Part shown: positions 3,446-18,597 of the stretch, one piece after another
Position numbering within the stretch: the first letter of the stretch is position 1
Layout: each line of letters starts with the position of its first letter
NCBI GenBank assembly: GCA_030625815.1
Contig: DAOUQF010000005.1
Location: 1-64,000 of the forward strand
DNA from: Eubacteriales bacterium
GTDB taxonomy: Bacteria > Bacillota > Clostridia > Tissierellales > GPF-1
Direction: 5' to 3'
Length of the DNA: 64,000 nucleotides
Notes under the pieces: model-generated
What the model was told of the DNA's origin: nothing
Seen by the model: only the letters and a program-made list of their open reading frames with translations
Database searches by the model: none
Position numbers and translations under genes: made by a program

Positions 3446-4204
3446 ATGTTTCCTCAAGAACGCATGTCTCAAATCATTCAAATTCTAAAACAAGAAGGCC
3501 GTGTTCGCGTCAAGGACCTAAGCCAGCAATTCGGCATGTCGGAAGACGCCATTCGAAAAGACCTTCAAGCCCTTGAAAAAGAAGGAATTCTAGAACGAAC
3601 CTATGGCGGCGGCATTCTGAAAACCCTGCCTGTCGAAATTCAGCCCATCGACGATCGGCGTTCAACCCTGTCCCCGGAACAGCATCTGATTGCAAAGAAG
3701 GCGATGGCGTTGATTGAACCCAAGGATGTAATCTTTATCGACATCTCATCCACCACCCTCGCCTTGGCGGAAGAATTAGTCAGCTACAAGTATCCCCTTA
3801 CGGTCGTCACCAACGATTTGGAGATCCTCTATCGGCTCTGCCGCAATCACCATCTTCGCATGGTGTGTCCGGGGGGCGTTTACAATCAAGACGAAGGCGG
3901 CTTCACCGGTACGGAAACCATGGAAAATCTAACCCGAATTCGGGTGAACAAGATCTTTATGAGCACCTGCGGCATTCCATCCGACCTTGGAATCATGACC
4001 TACAACATCGATGATGGAAACACCAAGCGCGTTTTAATGTCCATCGCTCATCAAAAAATTCTCTTGGTCGAAACAAAGAAATTCCACTCATCCGGATTGT
4101 ATCAATTTGCACACCTAAAGGATTTTGATTGCATCGTCAGCGAAAAGCCCTTGGACCAGGAGGTTCAAGCCCGGATCGCAGAATATCCAATTCATCTACT
4201 ATAA
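3446..4204 (+). CDS. DeoR/GlpR family transcriptional regulator
   Basis: A 252-residue DeoR-type sugar-phosphate-responsive repressor. An N-terminal winged HTH (VRVKDLSQQFGMSEDAIRKD, residues about 19-55) is followed by the family linker YGG and a C-terminal sensor domain with the usual DISSTT and VVTND motifs. AGAGGTGG precedes the ATG. It is the first gene of a rightward sugar operon and divergent from the radical enzyme, so it probably controls both; the inducer would be a phosphorylated sugar made in the pathway. The family is certain, the target promoters are inferred. Confidence 0.9.
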   Translation: MFPQERMSQIIQILKQEGRVRVKDLSQQFGMSEDAIRKDLQALEKEGILERTYGGGILKTLPVEIQPIDDRRSTLSPEQHLIAKKAMALIEPKDVIFIDISSTTLALAEELVSYKYPLTVVTNDLEILYRLCRNHHLRMVCPGGVYNQDEGGFTGTETMENLTRIRVNKIFMSTCGIPSDLGIMTYNIDDGNTKRVLMSIAHQKILLVETKKFHSSGLYQFAHLKDFDCIVSEKPLDQEVQARIAEYPIHLL

Positions 4205-4214
4205 AGGAGGCACT

Positions 4215-5084
4215 ATGAAACGAGTATTGATTACTGGCGGGAAAGGATTTTTAATGTCCCGCACCACAAAGACCTATCAAGGGAAATGGGAAATCTTAAG
4301 CCTCGACCGCGCGCAACTCGATATTACGGATCACAAGGCTGTCAGTCAAACCTTCGAATCCTTTCAGCCGACCCATGTCATCCATGCGGCAGCCATTGCC
4401 ATGACTCAAGTCTGTGAAGACCATCCAGACATGGCCTATCGCGTGAATACGGAAGCCGCTGAACATATCGCAAAAGAATGCAAAAAGCATCAGGCGAAGC
4501 TCTTGTTTTTCAGCACCGAGCAAGTTTTCAACGGGAATCCAGAGCCGGGTCCATATTCCGTAGACACCACGCCGGTCCCAGATACCGTCTACGGACAAAA
4601 CAAATACGCCGCAGAACAAAAAATCCAGGCTCTCGATGTCGACGCTGTCATCCTGCGGCTCAGCTGGTTGTTTGGTCTGCCGGAGCGAAACCTGCCCAAT
4701 GGCTATACCCTCTTTTGGGATGTTTTCTCCGCCGCGTTGCGCCATCAGCCCACCTCCGCCTCTCCCCATGAATTCCGAGGAGTTACTTGCGCCTATGACT
4801 TAATCGATCAATTCGATTCTATCTTTGCGCTTCCAGCGGGCATCTATCACTTTGGAAGCGAGAACACCATGAGCCGCTATGAAACCGCTCGTCTAATTCT
4901 CAAAGAAATCAACCTAAGCGACGAGGTCATCGATGCGACCATCCTTTGCGCGAAAGAGAAATTCAAGGATCATCCACGTGATCTTCGACTCGACTACACC
5001 CAAACAATAGCAGCCGGCATTCGCATTCTTCCCACGGAAGAAAGCATCCGCAAGGAACTTGCCGCTTTTCACTATTCCCTATAA
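4215..5084 (+). CDS. RmlD-like NAD(P)-dependent sugar reductase
   Basis: A 289-residue extended short-chain dehydrogenase resembling dTDP-4-dehydrorhamnose reductase. The Rossmann start ITGGKGFLM has lost the third glycine of GxxGxxG (Met instead). The catalytic YGQNK (YxxxK) is intact, and HAAAIA and STEQVFNG match the RmlD subgroup. The start follows AAAGGAGG. It lies 10 bases after deoR and 12 before manA. No rhamnose biosynthesis genes (rmlA, rmlB, rmlC) are present, so a catabolic sugar oxidoreductase role inside this operon is more plausible than dTDP-rhamnose synthesis. Substrate unknown. Confidence 0.75.
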   Translation: MKRVLITGGKGFLMSRTTKTYQGKWEILSLDRAQLDITDHKAVSQTFESFQPTHVIHAAAIAMTQVCEDHPDMAYRVNTEAAEHIAKECKKHQAKLLFFSTEQVFNGNPEPGPYSVDTTPVPDTVYGQNKYAAEQKIQALDVDAVILRLSWLFGLPERNLPNGYTLFWDVFSAALRHQPTSASPHEFRGVTCAYDLIDQFDSIFALPAGIYHFGSENTMSRYETARLILKEINLSDEVIDATILCAKEKFKDHPRDLRLDYTQTIAAGIRILPTEESIRKELAAFHYSL

Positions 5085-13844: not shown

Positions 13845-14702
13845 TTATGTGTGCTTTGTCAGCAACCTTTCCCATATCGCGCGAATGGCGCGATTTGCTG
13901 GAGAATCTTTCATCTCCACCACAGGCTTTGCTTCACGCAATGCCTGAAAAACAATTGGATCGAAGGGAATAATTCCTGCAACCAGGATTCCTTCCGACTC
14001 CGCTCGCTTTGCGATTTCTCGCTCAATCTTTTCATTCAAATTCCATTTATTGATTATGATACAAACTGGAACATCCAGTTTTTTTGCTAATTCAATGGAT
14101 CGAAAGCCATCCGAGACGCCTGACAAACTCGGTTCCATCACAACGATCGCCAAGTGGCAACCCGCTAAGGATGCAATCACAGGACATCCAATTCCCGGCG
14201 GCCCATCGATTAATAAATTCAATGCTTTCGGTTCTGCAATCTGCCGCAATTGATGCACCAATTTTCCGCTTCCGGCTTCTCCCGGGAATAAGCGCGCATG
14301 CACCAAGGGTCCCTGTTGAATTCGATCCTCGTAGATCTGGCCCGTTTGAACCGTTTCCATTTGAATCGCCGCATGCTCGCAATATAAGCTGCAGAGTCCG
14401 CAACCTTCGCAAAATATCGGTTCCACAACCAGCCGTCCATTTTGAATGCCAATGGCCGATTGTGGACAAACGGTTTGACATGCCCCGCATCGGACACATC
14501 GATTTTGCTTAATAACCGCCTTTTCTCCACCAATAAATTCTTGTTTCTTAATTCTCTTTCCCTGCGGAAACAACAGGGCTAAGTTGGCTGCATCGGTATC
14601 CGCATCCATCATGCACCATGTTTCATCACTTAAGGCGGCAAAAGAAGAAGTAACCATGGTTTTTCCGGTACCGCCTTTTCCGCTTATCACAACCCATTTC
14701 AT
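13845..14702 (-). CDS. MinD-superfamily P-loop ATPase with inserted ferredoxin domain
   Basis: A 285-residue Mrp/MinD-like ATPase. The deviant Walker A GKGGTGKT is at residues 8-15. Two 4Fe-4S motifs, CVRCGACQTVCP and CEGCGLCSLYC, interrupt the ATPase fold near residues 60-115, and DGPPGIGCPVIAS follows. The start ATG overlaps the stop of the upstream paralogue (ATGA), so the pair is coupled. Such ferredoxin-ATPase pairs next to NifX-like proteins occur in anaerobes and may assemble or carry Fe-S or metal clusters; the role is not established. Confidence 0.88.
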   Translation of the reverse strand: MKWVVISGKGGTGKTMVTSSFAALSDETWCMMDADTDAANLALLFPQGKRIKKQEFIGGEKAVIKQNRCVRCGACQTVCPQSAIGIQNGRLVVEPIFCEGCGLCSLYCEHAAIQMETVQTGQIYEDRIQQGPLVHARLFPGEAGSGKLVHQLRQIAEPKALNLLIDGPPGIGCPVIASLAGCHLAIVVMEPSLSGVSDGFRSIELAKKLDVPVCIIINKWNLNEKIEREIAKRAESEGILVAGIIPFDPIVFQALREAKPVVEMKDSPANRAIRAIWERLLTKHT

Positions 14703-15541
14703 TGCTTGCCGCACTCCCTTCTGCCTAAAATCTGGCTGCCCCATTGTTTCAGAGGCGATTGAAGTTCATCCAACAATGCCTGCAAATCCCCTTGCCCATA
14801 GGCTCGGGCTATAGATTCAGAGAAAGGAATCGTTCCCAGAAGCGTAATATTCCTCCTGGCAATATACGATTGCAACTCTTCCTCGTAACCAAAGGAACGA
14901 TTGATTACGACCCCAGCCGGAATCCCCAACCGCTGCAACACCTCAACTGTCGCTTTAAAATCATGAATCCCAAACCGTGTAGGTTCAGCGACCAGCAACG
15001 CATAATCAATCCCCTTGAGTGTTTCAATGCAATTGCAAGAAACACCTGGCGGGCCATCTAAAATCCGGATTTCATTCCTTCGACTCAAGGCTTTCACTTC
15101 ATGAATCAATGGCGGTACAATGGACTCTTGAATATCAAGCCGACCCTCCCAGACAATTTGTTCCCCTGATTTTCCCTGCTTCGCGATCCCGATCTTTCTT
15201 GTAGATCGCGTGATGGCTTTGGTCTCACAGACCAATTCACATCCCATGCAACTATGACACAGCTCTGGAAAAAACAGTAATCCAGACTTTGTAAGCGCTA
15301 GCGCATTGTATCGACAAAAACCAACGCAAGCACCGCAATGCGTGCATTTATTATAACTGATTTCTGGAACCGCCACCGATACCTCATATGACCTTTCCCA
15401 AATTGGTTTTAGTAGTAAGGCACCATTGGGCACCTCGACATCACAGTCTATATAATCCCACCCAAAATATGCGGAAAGTGCTGTTGCCACTAAGGTTTTC
15501 CCCGTCCCTCCCTTTCCGCTGATCACTGCAATATCATACAA
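14699..15541 (-). CDS. MinD-superfamily P-loop ATPase with inserted ferredoxin domain (paralogue)
   Basis: A 280-residue relative of the neighbouring ATPase, with GKGGTGKT at residues 9-16 and two clusters (CTHCGACVGFC, CHSCMGCELVC) in the same place. LDGPPGVSCNCIETL is the Walker B region. The two probably form a heterodimer, as MinD/Mrp proteins act as dimers. It overlaps the NifX-like gene by 8 bases, so all three are one operon. Substrate cluster and partner are unknown. Confidence 0.88.
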   Translation of the reverse strand: MYDIAVISGKGGTGKTLVATALSAYFGWDYIDCDVEVPNGALLLKPIWERSYEVSVAVPEISYNKCTHCGACVGFCRYNALALTKSGLLFFPELCHSCMGCELVCETKAITRSTRKIGIAKQGKSGEQIVWEGRLDIQESIVPPLIHEVKALSRRNEIRILDGPPGVSCNCIETLKGIDYALLVAEPTRFGIHDFKATVEVLQRLGIPAGVVINRSFGYEEELQSYIARRNITLLGTIPFSESIARAYGQGDLQALLDELQSPLKQWGSQILGRRECGKQ

Positions 15542-15866
15542 GACGAGTTAAAATTCCTTTCTTAAAGGCATCTACGACCTCCTCCAAGGTACCGGCTGGA
15601 GATTCATAGACGGGAATTTGACTCTCTTGAATAATTCGCAAGGCTTTTGGTCCCAGCTTCTTGCAAATAATTGCGCCGACCTTTTCATCCGCTGCCAATT
15701 GAGCGATGGAAATTCCAGCGCCATGCTCATGGTTGATTGACGAGTTTTTCAAAAAATCATAATGATTCTGGATTTCTGAGTAAAATGCAAAATACGGACT
15801 TCTTCCAAAATTTTCGGACACCATTGCGTCTGTTTTCTTGTCAGATACACTAATCATAATTCTCAT
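15534..15866 (-). CDS. NifX/NifB-like dinitrogenase iron-molybdenum cofactor domain protein
   Basis: A 110-residue single-domain protein of the family that binds FeMo-cofactor precursors in nitrogen fixers. Typical features are the ISVSDKKTDAMVSENFGRSPYF start, the conserved HGAGIS loop, and GPKALRIIQESQIPVYE. No nif genes are present, so a general iron-sulfur or metal-cluster carrier role is more likely. The start follows GGAGG and comes 17 bases after a perfect CATATG-centred palindrome. It is the first gene of the operon with the two ferredoxin ATPases. Confidence 0.87.
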   Translation of the reverse strand: MRIMISVSDKKTDAMVSENFGRSPYFAFYSEIQNHYDFLKNSSINHEHGAGISIAQLAADEKVGAIICKKLGPKALRIIQESQIPVYESPAGTLEEVVDAFKKGILTRLV

Positions 15867-15882
15867 TTCATCGACCTCCTTT

Positions 15883-15902
15883 ATTGGCATATGCCAATTA
15901 TA
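15883..15902 (-). promoter_or_regulatory. Operator palindrome and -10 of the NifX/ATPase operon
   Basis: ATTGGCATATGCCAAT is a perfect 16-base palindrome just downstream of a TATAAT -10 (minus strand, 15897-15902). A related GGGCATATGCCC lies before the DUF5320 gene. Confidence 0.7.
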
Positions 15903-15931
15903 GTGTACGTCATTTCTAAAAAAAGAACAAG

Positions 15932-15962
15932 AAAAAACCCGATTTATCTTCGGGCTTTTTTT
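15932..15962 (-). terminator. Terminator of the PadR/DUF2812 operon
   Basis: On the minus strand, GCCCGAAGATAAATCGGG is followed by TTTTTT. Confidence 0.75.
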
Positions 15963-15974
15963 GAGAGTTCTAAA

Positions 15975-16511
15975 CTATAAGATTGAATCTTTCAATTCGT
16001 TCATTCTTTGCTGGATACGATAGGCTCCATATCCCAATAGGCCTGTCACAACTGCGATTAAAATCCGTATCATTACAGTCGGCACTGACGTTGATCTGGA
16101 CAATCCTTCATTCAAGAGGGTGATATTTATAAAGTTAAACAGGTTCATTAAGCCCAATATCAGCGTAATATTTCTCCATCTCTTCAATGCATCCCATTTC
16201 GATTGATTATCGGATAATATTTCATCCTGTTCCCCCTCTTTATGCGGCTTTCGAAAATACTGCCACGAAAAGAGCCTATCTACCCATTCCCACCCTAAGT
16301 CTTCAAATAGCCTGACACATGACTGCAGGTCCATTTCTTTGCCAGAGTAAGAGTACAATCGATACGTAATGTCTTCCGGTTCTCCTTTGATAAAGTCATA
16401 TACGCACCATCCTACTTTTCTTAAATGCCATCCTTGGGCTGCCATACTCTTCAGCCATTTTTCTTCTTCCAGTTCCTGCCAAGCAAAAAACACCCTTCTT
16501 ATTCTCTTCAT
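15975..16511 (-). CDS. DUF2812 membrane protein
   Basis: A 178-residue protein. The N-terminal soluble half has the DUF2812 pattern (EEEKWLKSMAAQGWHLRKVGWCVYDFIKGEP, then YRLYSY). Two hydrophobic segments follow near residues 115-135 and 145-165. Genes of this family usually sit beside a PadR regulator, as here; their function is unknown. A GTG at 16520 overlapping the padR stop is an alternative start with a better-spaced GGAGG; ATG 16511 has AGGAG 10 bases away. Confidence 0.75.
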   Translation of the reverse strand: MKRIRRVFFAWQELEEEKWLKSMAAQGWHLRKVGWCVYDFIKGEPEDITYRLYSYSGKEMDLQSCVRLFEDLGWEWVDRLFSWQYFRKPHKEGEQDEILSDNQSKWDALKRWRNITLILGLMNLFNFINITLLNEGLSRSTSVPTVMIRILIAVVTGLLGYGAYRIQQRMNELKDSIL

Positions 16512-16516
16512 CTCTT

Positions 16517-16843
16517 TCACGCTCCTGCCTCCTTCACCCATTCCTCCGAGTTTGCAACCACCCGTTTCATGCGATAGTATTCATCCAATAGCAGTTGCTG
16601 CCCTTCCTCGGTCAACACGTAACATTTTCTTCGATCATCGGATGAATCCGGACAAACCGTAGCCTGAATCGCCCCCTGCTTTTCCAATTTCCCCAAGGCT
16701 CCATACAAGGTTCCAGGTCCAATCTCCACCTGTCCCTCTGTGATTCGTTCAATCATCTGCATCATGCCATACCCATGATTGGGCTCTTGCAATGCCAGTA
16801 AAATATAATAGGTCGCTTCCGTTAACGGTCCTCTCTTTTTCAT
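16517..16843 (-). CDS. PadR family transcriptional regulator
   Basis: A 108-residue winged-helix repressor. RGPLTEATYYILLALQEPNHGYGMMQ is the classic PadR N-terminus, followed by GPGTLYGALGKLEKQG (recognition region) and DDRRKCYVLTEEG. It is co-transcribed with the DUF2812 membrane protein, whose synthesis it probably controls along with its own. Upstream (16895-16925) lie overlapping TATCG/CGATA repeats that could be its operator. Confidence 0.9.
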   Translation of the reverse strand: MKKRGPLTEATYYILLALQEPNHGYGMMQMIERITEGQVEIGPGTLYGALGKLEKQGAIQATVCPDSSDDRRKCYVLTEEGQQLLLDEYYRMKRVVANSEEWVKEAGA

Positions 16844-16971
16844 GTCTCCATCCTTCCATTTTCACATCTTCAATTCACTCGTCATTCGCTCTATCGAGTC
16901 GCGATGTATCGTGTATCGATATATTACCCCGTGCCTCATCCAAAGTCAATAAATATTTCAGAATTTTATTA

Positions 16972-17023
16972 TTGACATATGCCCATAATGGAGTTATGAT
17001 GGTCTTGTAAAGGGCATATGCCC
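16972..17023 (+). promoter_or_regulatory. Promoter with two CATATGCCC operators
   Basis: TTGACA (16972), 17-base spacer, TATGAT (16995-17000). CATATGCCCATAAT overlaps the spacer, and GGGCATATGCCCATTAT lies near +12, about 40 bases further on. The core matches the palindrome before the NifX-like gene. Confidence 0.75.
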
Positions 17024-17043
17024 ATTATAAAGGAGGTGACAAT

Positions 17044-17352
17044 ATGAGATTGCATCGAAATTGTCGTTACTGGGAACGCGCAGGATATGGTATGATGAGA
17101 GCACAGAGAGGTGCTGGTATGAGAGCTGGTCGAGGCTATGGTATGAACGCTGGCATGGGTGCTGGCCAAGGCTATGATCGAGGAATTGGCGTTCGCGAAT
17201 ATGTCGAACTGCCTGATGAAACGAGACCTTGCTACGGACGTTACGCCAACGCGCAACAACGCGCTCATGTAGAAGAAGCCATTGCTTTCCACGAAGAACG
17301 ATTGGAAGAACTTAACGCACGCCTCTCAAGTATCCCTGCAAAGGATGAGTAA
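17044..17352 (+). CDS. DUF5320 family protein, Gly/Arg/Met-rich
   Basis: A 102-residue protein. Residues 1-60 are rich in Gly, Arg, Met and Tyr (repeats such as GYGMNAGMGAGQGYD). The C-terminus is a charged helix (AHVEEAIAFHEERLEELNARL). This matches the DUF5320 proteins often found next to DUF134 and NifX-like genes in anaerobes. GGAGG precedes the ATG; the next gene starts 2 bases after its stop. No function is known; the disordered Met/Gly-rich part could bind metal or nucleic acid, which is speculation. Confidence 0.8.
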   Translation: MRLHRNCRYWERAGYGMMRAQRGAGMRAGRGYGMNAGMGAGQGYDRGIGVREYVELPDETRPCYGRYANAQQRAHVEEAIAFHEERLEELNARLSSIPAKDE

Positions 17353-17354
17353 AC

Positions 17355-17675
17355 GTGCCAAGACCAAGAAAACACCGTAGAATCGGACAACGACCGCGTT
17401 TCGGCGCCTTTGGCCCCGATGGCCATCCCAATGTAGAAAACGTCATTCTTCAATTGGAAGAAATGGAAAGTCTGCGCCTAATGGATCTGGAACACCTGGA
17501 TCAAAAGGCATGCGCCGAACTCATGGGCATTAGCCGGACAACCTTTCAGCGCATCTACAAGATGGCGCGACAAAAAGTAGCAGAAAGCATTGTCGAGGGA
17601 AAACGACTCTTGATTGAAGAGGAGTGTTCTTGTCCTCAATGCCAAGAACATCAAAACAAATCCACCCGTCCCTAA
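17355..17675 (+). CDS. DUF134 putative DNA-binding protein
   Basis: A 106-residue protein starting with GTG: PRPRKHRRIGQRPRF, then a sigma-70 region 4-like HTH (QKACAELMGISRTTFQRIYKMARQKVAESI, about 48-80) and a C-terminal Cys pair (CSCPQC) that could bind metal. Coupled to the DUF5320 gene. It is a good candidate for the regulator that binds the CATATGCC palindromes upstream of this operon and of the NifX/ATPase operon, perhaps in response to Fe-S or redox state; that link is inference. Confidence 0.82.
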   Translation: MPRPRKHRRIGQRPRFGAFGPDGHPNVENVILQLEEMESLRLMDLEHLDQKACAELMGISRTTFQRIYKMARQKVAESIVEGKRLLIEEECSCPQCQEHQNKSTRP

Positions 17676-18048: not shown

Positions 18049-18597
18049 ATGAAAAAAATATTTGCAATAAGTGTATTGATTTTGATGATTGGCACCACCG
18101 GATTTGCCGCTGAAGCACCAGGTGCAGCAGGCGCTTTGGCACAGGAAACCTACACAATCGAAGAGATGTTGCATTATGCCATTCAAGACGAATGGCTGGC
18201 AGAAGCTGAATATACGGCATTAATGGAAGAATTCGATGTAACTCGTCCTTTCTCCAATATTCAACGCGCCGAACTCACCCACATCGATTTGTTGCTTCCG
18301 CTATTTGAATCCTATGGGATTGAATTGCCGGCGAAACCAGATCTGGCTGTGATTCCAGAAACCTTGGAAGAGACATACCAAATCGGCGTTGACGCGGAAA
18401 TCGCCAATATCGCCATGTATGAAAAATTCTTGGAGGATGAAACGCTTCCCGATGACATCGCGTCCGTATTTACCCGTTTGATGAACGCCTCCAAAAACCA
18501 TCTCAATGCCTTTCAACGTCAAGTTGACCGCGGCATTGACGGTTTTTCACAAGATGGAAATCGCTTTGGTCGCGGAAGACAAAACCGTCGCGGTTAA
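18049..18597 (+). CDS. Exported DUF2202 (ferritin-like) protein
   Basis: A 182-residue protein with a signal peptide (MKKIFAISVLILMIGTTGFA, cleavage near residue 20) and a four-helix DUF2202 domain. ExxxAEY (EWLAEAEYTAL), RAELTHIDLL, DAEIANIAMYEKF and ASKNHLNAF give the repeated Glu/His positions expected of a ferritin-like diiron fold. The tail is Gly/Arg-rich. GAGAGGAG precedes the ATG. Function of the family is not known; metal binding outside the cell is plausible. Confidence 0.83.
   Translation: MKKIFAISVLILMIGTTGFAAEAPGAAGALAQETYTIEEMLHYAIQDEWLAEAEYTALMEEFDVTRPFSNIQRAELTHIDLLLPLFESYGIELPAKPDLAVIPETLEETYQIGVDAEIANIAMYEKFLEDETLPDDIASVFTRLMNASKNHLNAFQRQVDRGIDGFSQDGNRFGRGRQNRRG

Follow-up and report, generated by a model that had tools for sequence, protein, structure and literature searches.

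Palindromes shared by two neighboring operons are probable operators of DUF134, a candidate local repressor of NifX and Fe-S-ATPase genes

The window (the whole stretch of DNA analyzed here, 64,000 nucleotides of a Eubacteriales bacterium) contains two operons on opposite strands. One encodes a DUF5320-like small protein and a DUF134 (UPF0251) protein, and the other encodes a NifX-like protein and two MinD/Mrp-type ATPases with a ferredoxin insert (Table 1). The DUF134 protein is a clear member of PF02001, which Pfam lists as "of unknown function". It possesses a sigma-region-4-like helix-turn-helix (HTH) with the recognition helix SRTTFQRIY, and a C-terminal CSCPQC. The start of the NifX-like gene was shifted from the listed 15890 to an ATG behind AGGAGG, and this start is conserved in congeners. 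The DNA between the two operons is occupied by an unrelated operon encoding a PadR-type regulator and a DUF2812 membrane protein (15975-16843), which lacks the operator described below. A rubrerythrin/DUF2202-like gene with a signal-peptide-like start (18049-18597) is located just 3' of the DUF134 operon.

Table 1. Genes, predicted operators and promoter elements of the two operons
Feature	Position	Strand	Basis and remarks
MinD/Mrp-type ATPase with ferredoxin insert (second)	13845..14702	-	PF01656, PF10609, Fer4; proposed target operon
MinD/Mrp-type ATPase with ferredoxin insert	14699..15541	-	PF01656 and Fer4; proposed target operon
NifX-like protein (dinitrogenase iron-molybdenum cofactor family)	15534..15866	-	PF02579, 74.3 bits; proposed target
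Operator O3 (predicted)	15881..15900	-	TAATTGGCATATGCCAATAA (forward strand TTATTGGCATATGCCAATTA); at -10/+1 of NifX-ATPase operon
-10 TATAAT, NifX operon promoter	15897..15902	-	Abuts/overlaps O3; kept in three congeners
Operator O1 (predicted)	16969..16988	+	TTATTGACATATGCCCATAA; -35 TTGACA (16972-16977) inside; top matrix match of the window
-10 TATGAT, DUF5320-DUF134 promoter	16995..17000	+	17 bp from -35 TTGACA; read from sequence
Operator O2 (predicted)	17008..17027	+	TAAAGGGCATATGCCCATTA; just 3' of the expected transcription start
DUF5320-like small protein, gene 1 of DUF134 operon	17044..17352	+	PF17253, E 1.2e-5, 26.8 bits (27-bit cut-off narrowly missed)
DUF134 (UPF0251)	17355..17675	+	PF02001, 85.1 bits (cut-off 27); proposed operator-binding repressor

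An earlier note on this DNA had placed three copies of a short shared sequence at these promoters, and all three were found at those places. Perfect GGCATATGCC occurs at 15886-15895 (in O3) and 17013-17022 (in O2), and GACATATGCC at 16974-16983 forms the core of O1. The common consensus of the sites is TTATTGACATATGTCAATAA and each site is a 20-bp near-palindrome; the operator length, given earlier as 8-10, was thus corrected to approximately 20 bp. The description of two sites bracketing the DUF5320-DUF134 promoter held for both sites, with a distance between centers of 39 bp, a modal spacing in relatives, rather than 40 bases. The status of O1 as an imperfect copy did not hold: once the flanks were counted, O1 was the strongest of the three sites and was fused to the -35 element. 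The -35 element of the NifX operon promoter is weak. In three congeners, 24 bp around O1 were identical, as was CGTACACTATAATTGGCATATGCCAAT at O3, and two congeners kept O1, O2 and O3 while the surrounding DNA changed.

A 20-bp matrix whose training set excluded this genus gave the three sites scores of 28.5, 26.8 and 22.9 in the window; the runner-up in the 64 kb scored 6.4, and the best score in the reversed window was 14.6. A second matrix, for which the training set was limited to same-order genomes from other genera, gave 27.2, 27.1 and 21.5; in 20 windows simulated with matching dinucleotide content, no score exceeded 13.8. Further, CATATGCC occurred eight times in the window versus 2.14 expected, a count that none of 100 shuffles reached. 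The signal of bare GGCATATGCC was weaker, its count being matched in 4 of 100 shuffles (one mismatch allowed). This mild over-representation in the window speaks for a chance likeness of AT-rich promoter DNA, but the reversed-sequence, shuffled and DUF134-less controls all failed to reproduce the signal, and we regard chance as a negligible explanation. In the whole genome, perfect GGCATATGCC was found 9 times versus 3 times for the reversed control, and the AT-flanked form WWWNNRRCATATGYYNNWWW 7 times versus once. These seven copies comprise the three window sites, one at an Mrp-DUF134 promoter and three that are unexplained.

To examine conservation, we used 170 DUF134 genes from same-order genomes, 80 named GTDB loci, and a 300-genome sample of the phylum, in which DUF134 was present in 208 genomes (approximately two thirds); it also occurs in archaea. 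The density of RR-CATATG-YY at -110 to +5 of the 170 genes was 33 times the background, whereas the runner-up among 64 palindromes reached 9 times, on two counts. CATATG site pairs within 700 bp upstream of DUF134 genes were spaced 36-40 bp apart in 30 of 43 cases. The layout of the window, in which one operator incorporates the -35 TTGACA and a second site follows 34-42 bp downstream, was repeated at DUF134 genes across Bacillota, and in its exact form at 17 of 79 named genes. Approximately 30 related promoters, including those of other families, carried TTGACATATG upstream, a TATAAT-like hexamer at the place of the window's -10, and a second site downstream. With the second matrix, at least one site was found in 44 of 79 named loci versus 6 in the reversed control (72 versus 7 matches).

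The other 35 of these 79 loci had no match to the second matrix. Some of them hold other palindromes, namely TTATGATCAAATGATCATAA in Desulfobacter, where the DUF134 helix is SRQTVG, and TTTCCGACATATGACGGAAA in Lachnospiraceae, where it is SRTTVT; no palindrome was seen in the remaining matrix-negative named loci. Three Desulfobacter relatives carry a TTATGATCAAATGATCATAA-type palindrome approximately 20-30 bp 5' of DUF134 in the same frame (L143, L149 and L151), which is possibly the operator of the DUF134 clade with helix SRQTVG.

When the 300 genomes of the phylum were searched for the strict 14-mer TTGRCATATGYCAA, a search blind to DUF134, 45 matches were obtained, compared with 5 for the reversed sequence. 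Many were located directly 5' of DUF5320, DUF134, NifX, MinD-type or Mrp-type genes, and the others that we inspected were mostly inside unrelated open reading frames (ORFs). In two genomes (L234 and L235), the strict site stood at a DUF5320-NifX-ATPase operon with no adjoining DUF134. The genome from which the window derives has a further site at an Mrp-type ATPase-DUF134 operon (C24:62785-62804), and two DUF134 paralogs lie elsewhere in it. The third DUF134 of the genome is a DUF134-NifX fusion, with TGTGCATATGCACA at the equivalent place after TTGACA-N17-TATATT; its congeners retain TGTGCATATGCACA or TGAGCATATGCACA. The idea that a shared operator joins the two operons was therefore upheld by the scan of relatives that the earlier note had proposed: the palindromes are strongly conserved, in many families, at the promoters of DUF134, NifX, MinD/Mrp and DUF5320 genes.

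Which protein binds these palindromes was indicated by the distribution and the variation of the sites. Among the 36 genomes in which the strict 14-mer site occurred, 32 had DUF134, against 208 of 300 in the sample as a whole; each of the four strict matches inspected in genomes without DUF134 lay in an ORF. At NifX loci, a site was found in 16 of 30 genomes with DUF134 versus 2 of 30 without it. In these two (L288 and L301), DUF5320/NifX genes were preceded by the operator although no DUF134 was detected; gaps in the assemblies may be the reason. Further, the operator base at ±4 varied with the DUF134 recognition helix: ARTTV was accompanied by A (46:13), ARST by G (17:2), and SRQTF by G (27:1). 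Fisher tests gave p values of 2e-7 and 1e-11 on half-sites, which share ancestry and are not independent. A tree test of helix against base yielded only one or two independent pairs with support; most of them agreed with the expected direction, but they were too few for significance. An archaeal case was also counted for DUF134. On a contig with archaeal genes (RadB, RIO-kinase), a perfect 20-bp palindrome, TTTCCGACATATGTCGGAAA, precedes a DUF134-NifX fusion, in a setting that lacks bacterial sigma and its regulators. Thus, the shared distribution of the site and DUF134 and the joint variation of operator and recognition helix strongly support, at the level of sequence comparison, the earlier proposal of DUF134 as the candidate binder.

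The same archaeal contig, from a Methanomassiliicoccus MAG (L161), has the palindrome at 3957-3976 and the fusion gene at 4088-4747, and the palindrome is close to that of Lachnospiraceae. This likeness suggests that the fusion and its operator moved together between domains.

A Crp/Fnr-type regulator could be the binder instead, as TTGAC-N4-GTCAA is arranged like an FNR-type box. The outer letters of FNR-type boxes are like those of the palindrome, and their central four bases are free; here, however, the central CATATG is the most conserved part. The Crp HTH family is matched 25 times in the genome of the window, and in one same-order relative a Crp/Fnr-type gene (L215, 552-1256) lies directly 5' of a DUF5320-DUF134-NifX-ATPase operon. 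Nevertheless, the presence of the site does not follow Crp/Fnr genes: a Crp HTH occurs in all 30 DUF134-less genomes searched, yet 28 of the 30 NifX loci there lack the site. As base ±4 also tracks the DUF134 helix, we consider a Crp/Fnr regulator improbable. The PadR-type regulator (16517-16843) is a still weaker candidate. Its gene sits in the 1 kb that separates the sites, but the start of its own operon with DUF2812 has no matrix match, and the sites recur beside DUF134 in many families, with no PadR seen in the neighborhoods inspected; binding by this protein is very improbable.

The predicted structure of DUF134 is consistent with a DNA-binding role. The AlphaFold2 model had a mean pLDDT of 80, and above 90 in the HTH. 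Foldseek superposed it on sigma region 4 and the DeoR-DNA complex at approximately 0.6-1.0 Å over 40-50 residues, with a probability near 1 and no E-value below 0.001. The fold, as modeled, contains an HTH of the sigma-region-4/DeoR type, in agreement with the reading first made from the letters. A single-sequence search of solved structures with DUF134 gave no match. By profile, the best solved relative was DeoR of Bacillus subtilis (SorC family; 7bhy, E 2.6e-6), which has the helix SRPTVSRLL and for which an operator-bound structure is available. The similarity is limited to residues 39-76, and DUF134 is without the large C-terminal sugar-binding domain of DeoR/SorC proteins. DUF134 likewise did not class as a sigma factor: only the DUF134 profile scored above its cut-off, and sigma region 4 reached 20.7 bits versus a cut-off of 25.7.

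The likeness to sigma-70 region 4 extends from the protein to the DNA. The DUF134 HTH superposes on region 4, including that of E. coli sigma-E on -35 DNA (2h27), and the operator half-site TTGACA is identical to the -35 consensus. In contrast, DUF134 has 106 residues, without a core-binding or -10-binding region, and is predicted to read an inverted pair of hexamers where sigma reads one. On the sigma-70 alignment, Arg61 of DUF134 corresponds to R584, an arginine that is (near-)invariant in DUF134, and residue 62 corresponds to E585. The TTGACA bases on which R584 and E585 act in sigma-70 are -31 (C) and -33 (G) (PMC2613000). The base equivalent to -31 (C at ±3) was fixed by the CATATG core used for site collection; residue 62 of DUF134 covaries with the neighboring base, ±4. 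The register of the helix on the operator, as placed by the HTH alignment and not by a complex, would then be that of sigma. We tentatively suggest, at somewhat under an even chance, that DUF134 is a sigma-region-4 look-alike repressor. Its half-sites would be -35 hexamers read in sigma's register, it would compete with sigma for the same bases, the residue equivalent to E585 would set the fourth hexamer base, and its control of NifX/Fe-S-carrier ATPase genes would extend across bacteria and to some archaea. A half-site that has the form of a -35 hexamer and is read by a sigma-4-like helix would be a simple case of a repressor and sigma sharing one recognition sequence.

The conservation of the sites, the identity of the target genes and the link to DUF134 are backed by comparative data, and we consider it likely that the palindromes are operators of DUF134, which would act locally to repress both its own gene and a NifX/Fe-S-ATPase regulon, with repression deduced from position. 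A DUF134 dimer would read the two TTGRCAT halves of the 20-bp palindrome. At the DUF5320-DUF134 promoter, one dimer would occupy the operator that includes the -35 hexamer and another the start region; polymerase would thereby be shut out and DUF134 would keep its own amount in check. A single dimer would lie over the -10/start of the NifX-ATPase operon. Both operons would form one local regulon, to which the distant Mrp-type ATPase-DUF134 operon may also belong, and the DUF134-NifX fusion paralog may keep TGTGCATATGCACA as its own operator variant.

The earlier mention of a cysteine pair also fits the family: 166 of 170 members have cysteine residues after the HTH, a pair or more is common, and CxxC is present in 104 of 170. 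A metal, Fe-S or redox signal acting through these cysteines to release DUF134 is therefore plausible, as a guess. Such a two-state sensor might also activate its targets, or both activate and repress them, for example by switching on NifX in some metal or redox state, and position by itself does not prove repression. However, the places where the sites are found (the -35, the -10/start and the DNA 3' of the start) are typical for a repressor, and the -35 and -10 elements of several promoters are so close to consensus that no activator should be needed. Activation by DUF134 is accordingly unlikely, although less so than binding by a Crp/Fnr regulator.

The operator, the target set and the helix-to-base rule would provide DUF134 with a testable function, and the poorly understood NifX/MinD/Mrp gene groups gain a candidate regulator. 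The open-access literature that we searched contained no report of an operator, targets or role for DUF134, nor a functional report on DUF5320 or the operator sequence; subscription papers were outside the search, and a prior description is possible. One article retrieved for DUF134 (PMC10434189) contains DUF1349 instead. OrpR of Desulfovibrio is a sigma-54 activator of orange protein (ORP) genes, which include a NifX-like protein and a MinD-type ATPase. Its targets thus resemble those proposed here, whereas OrpR itself is unrelated to DUF134; the open-access search on OrpR found nothing. Xtr of C. difficile, a 47-kDa XRE protein, has the EMSA motif GCATATGCACCACC (PMC13260099). We set this motif aside as a relative of the operator: Xtr is not a DUF134 protein, the probe reads as coding sequence, and the two are probably unrelated.

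The 10-bp GGCATATGCC was too narrow as a definition of the motif, because DUF134 subfamilies differ in the base beside CATATG (A or G). Several of its perfect copies were rejected: a fourth copy in the window (41091) has the wrong flanks and lies inside a permease-like ORF, those on contigs C10, C18 and C49 are within ORFs, and those at C34:83236 and C1:11823 lack the flanks. Three further RR-CATATG-YY sites with AT flanks were located in the same genome at C12:96208, C17:41369 and C34:64836. The perfect copy at C1:11823-11832, whose flanks do not fit the 20-bp operator, is located between rpsL and rpsG, shortly 3' of a TTGACA.
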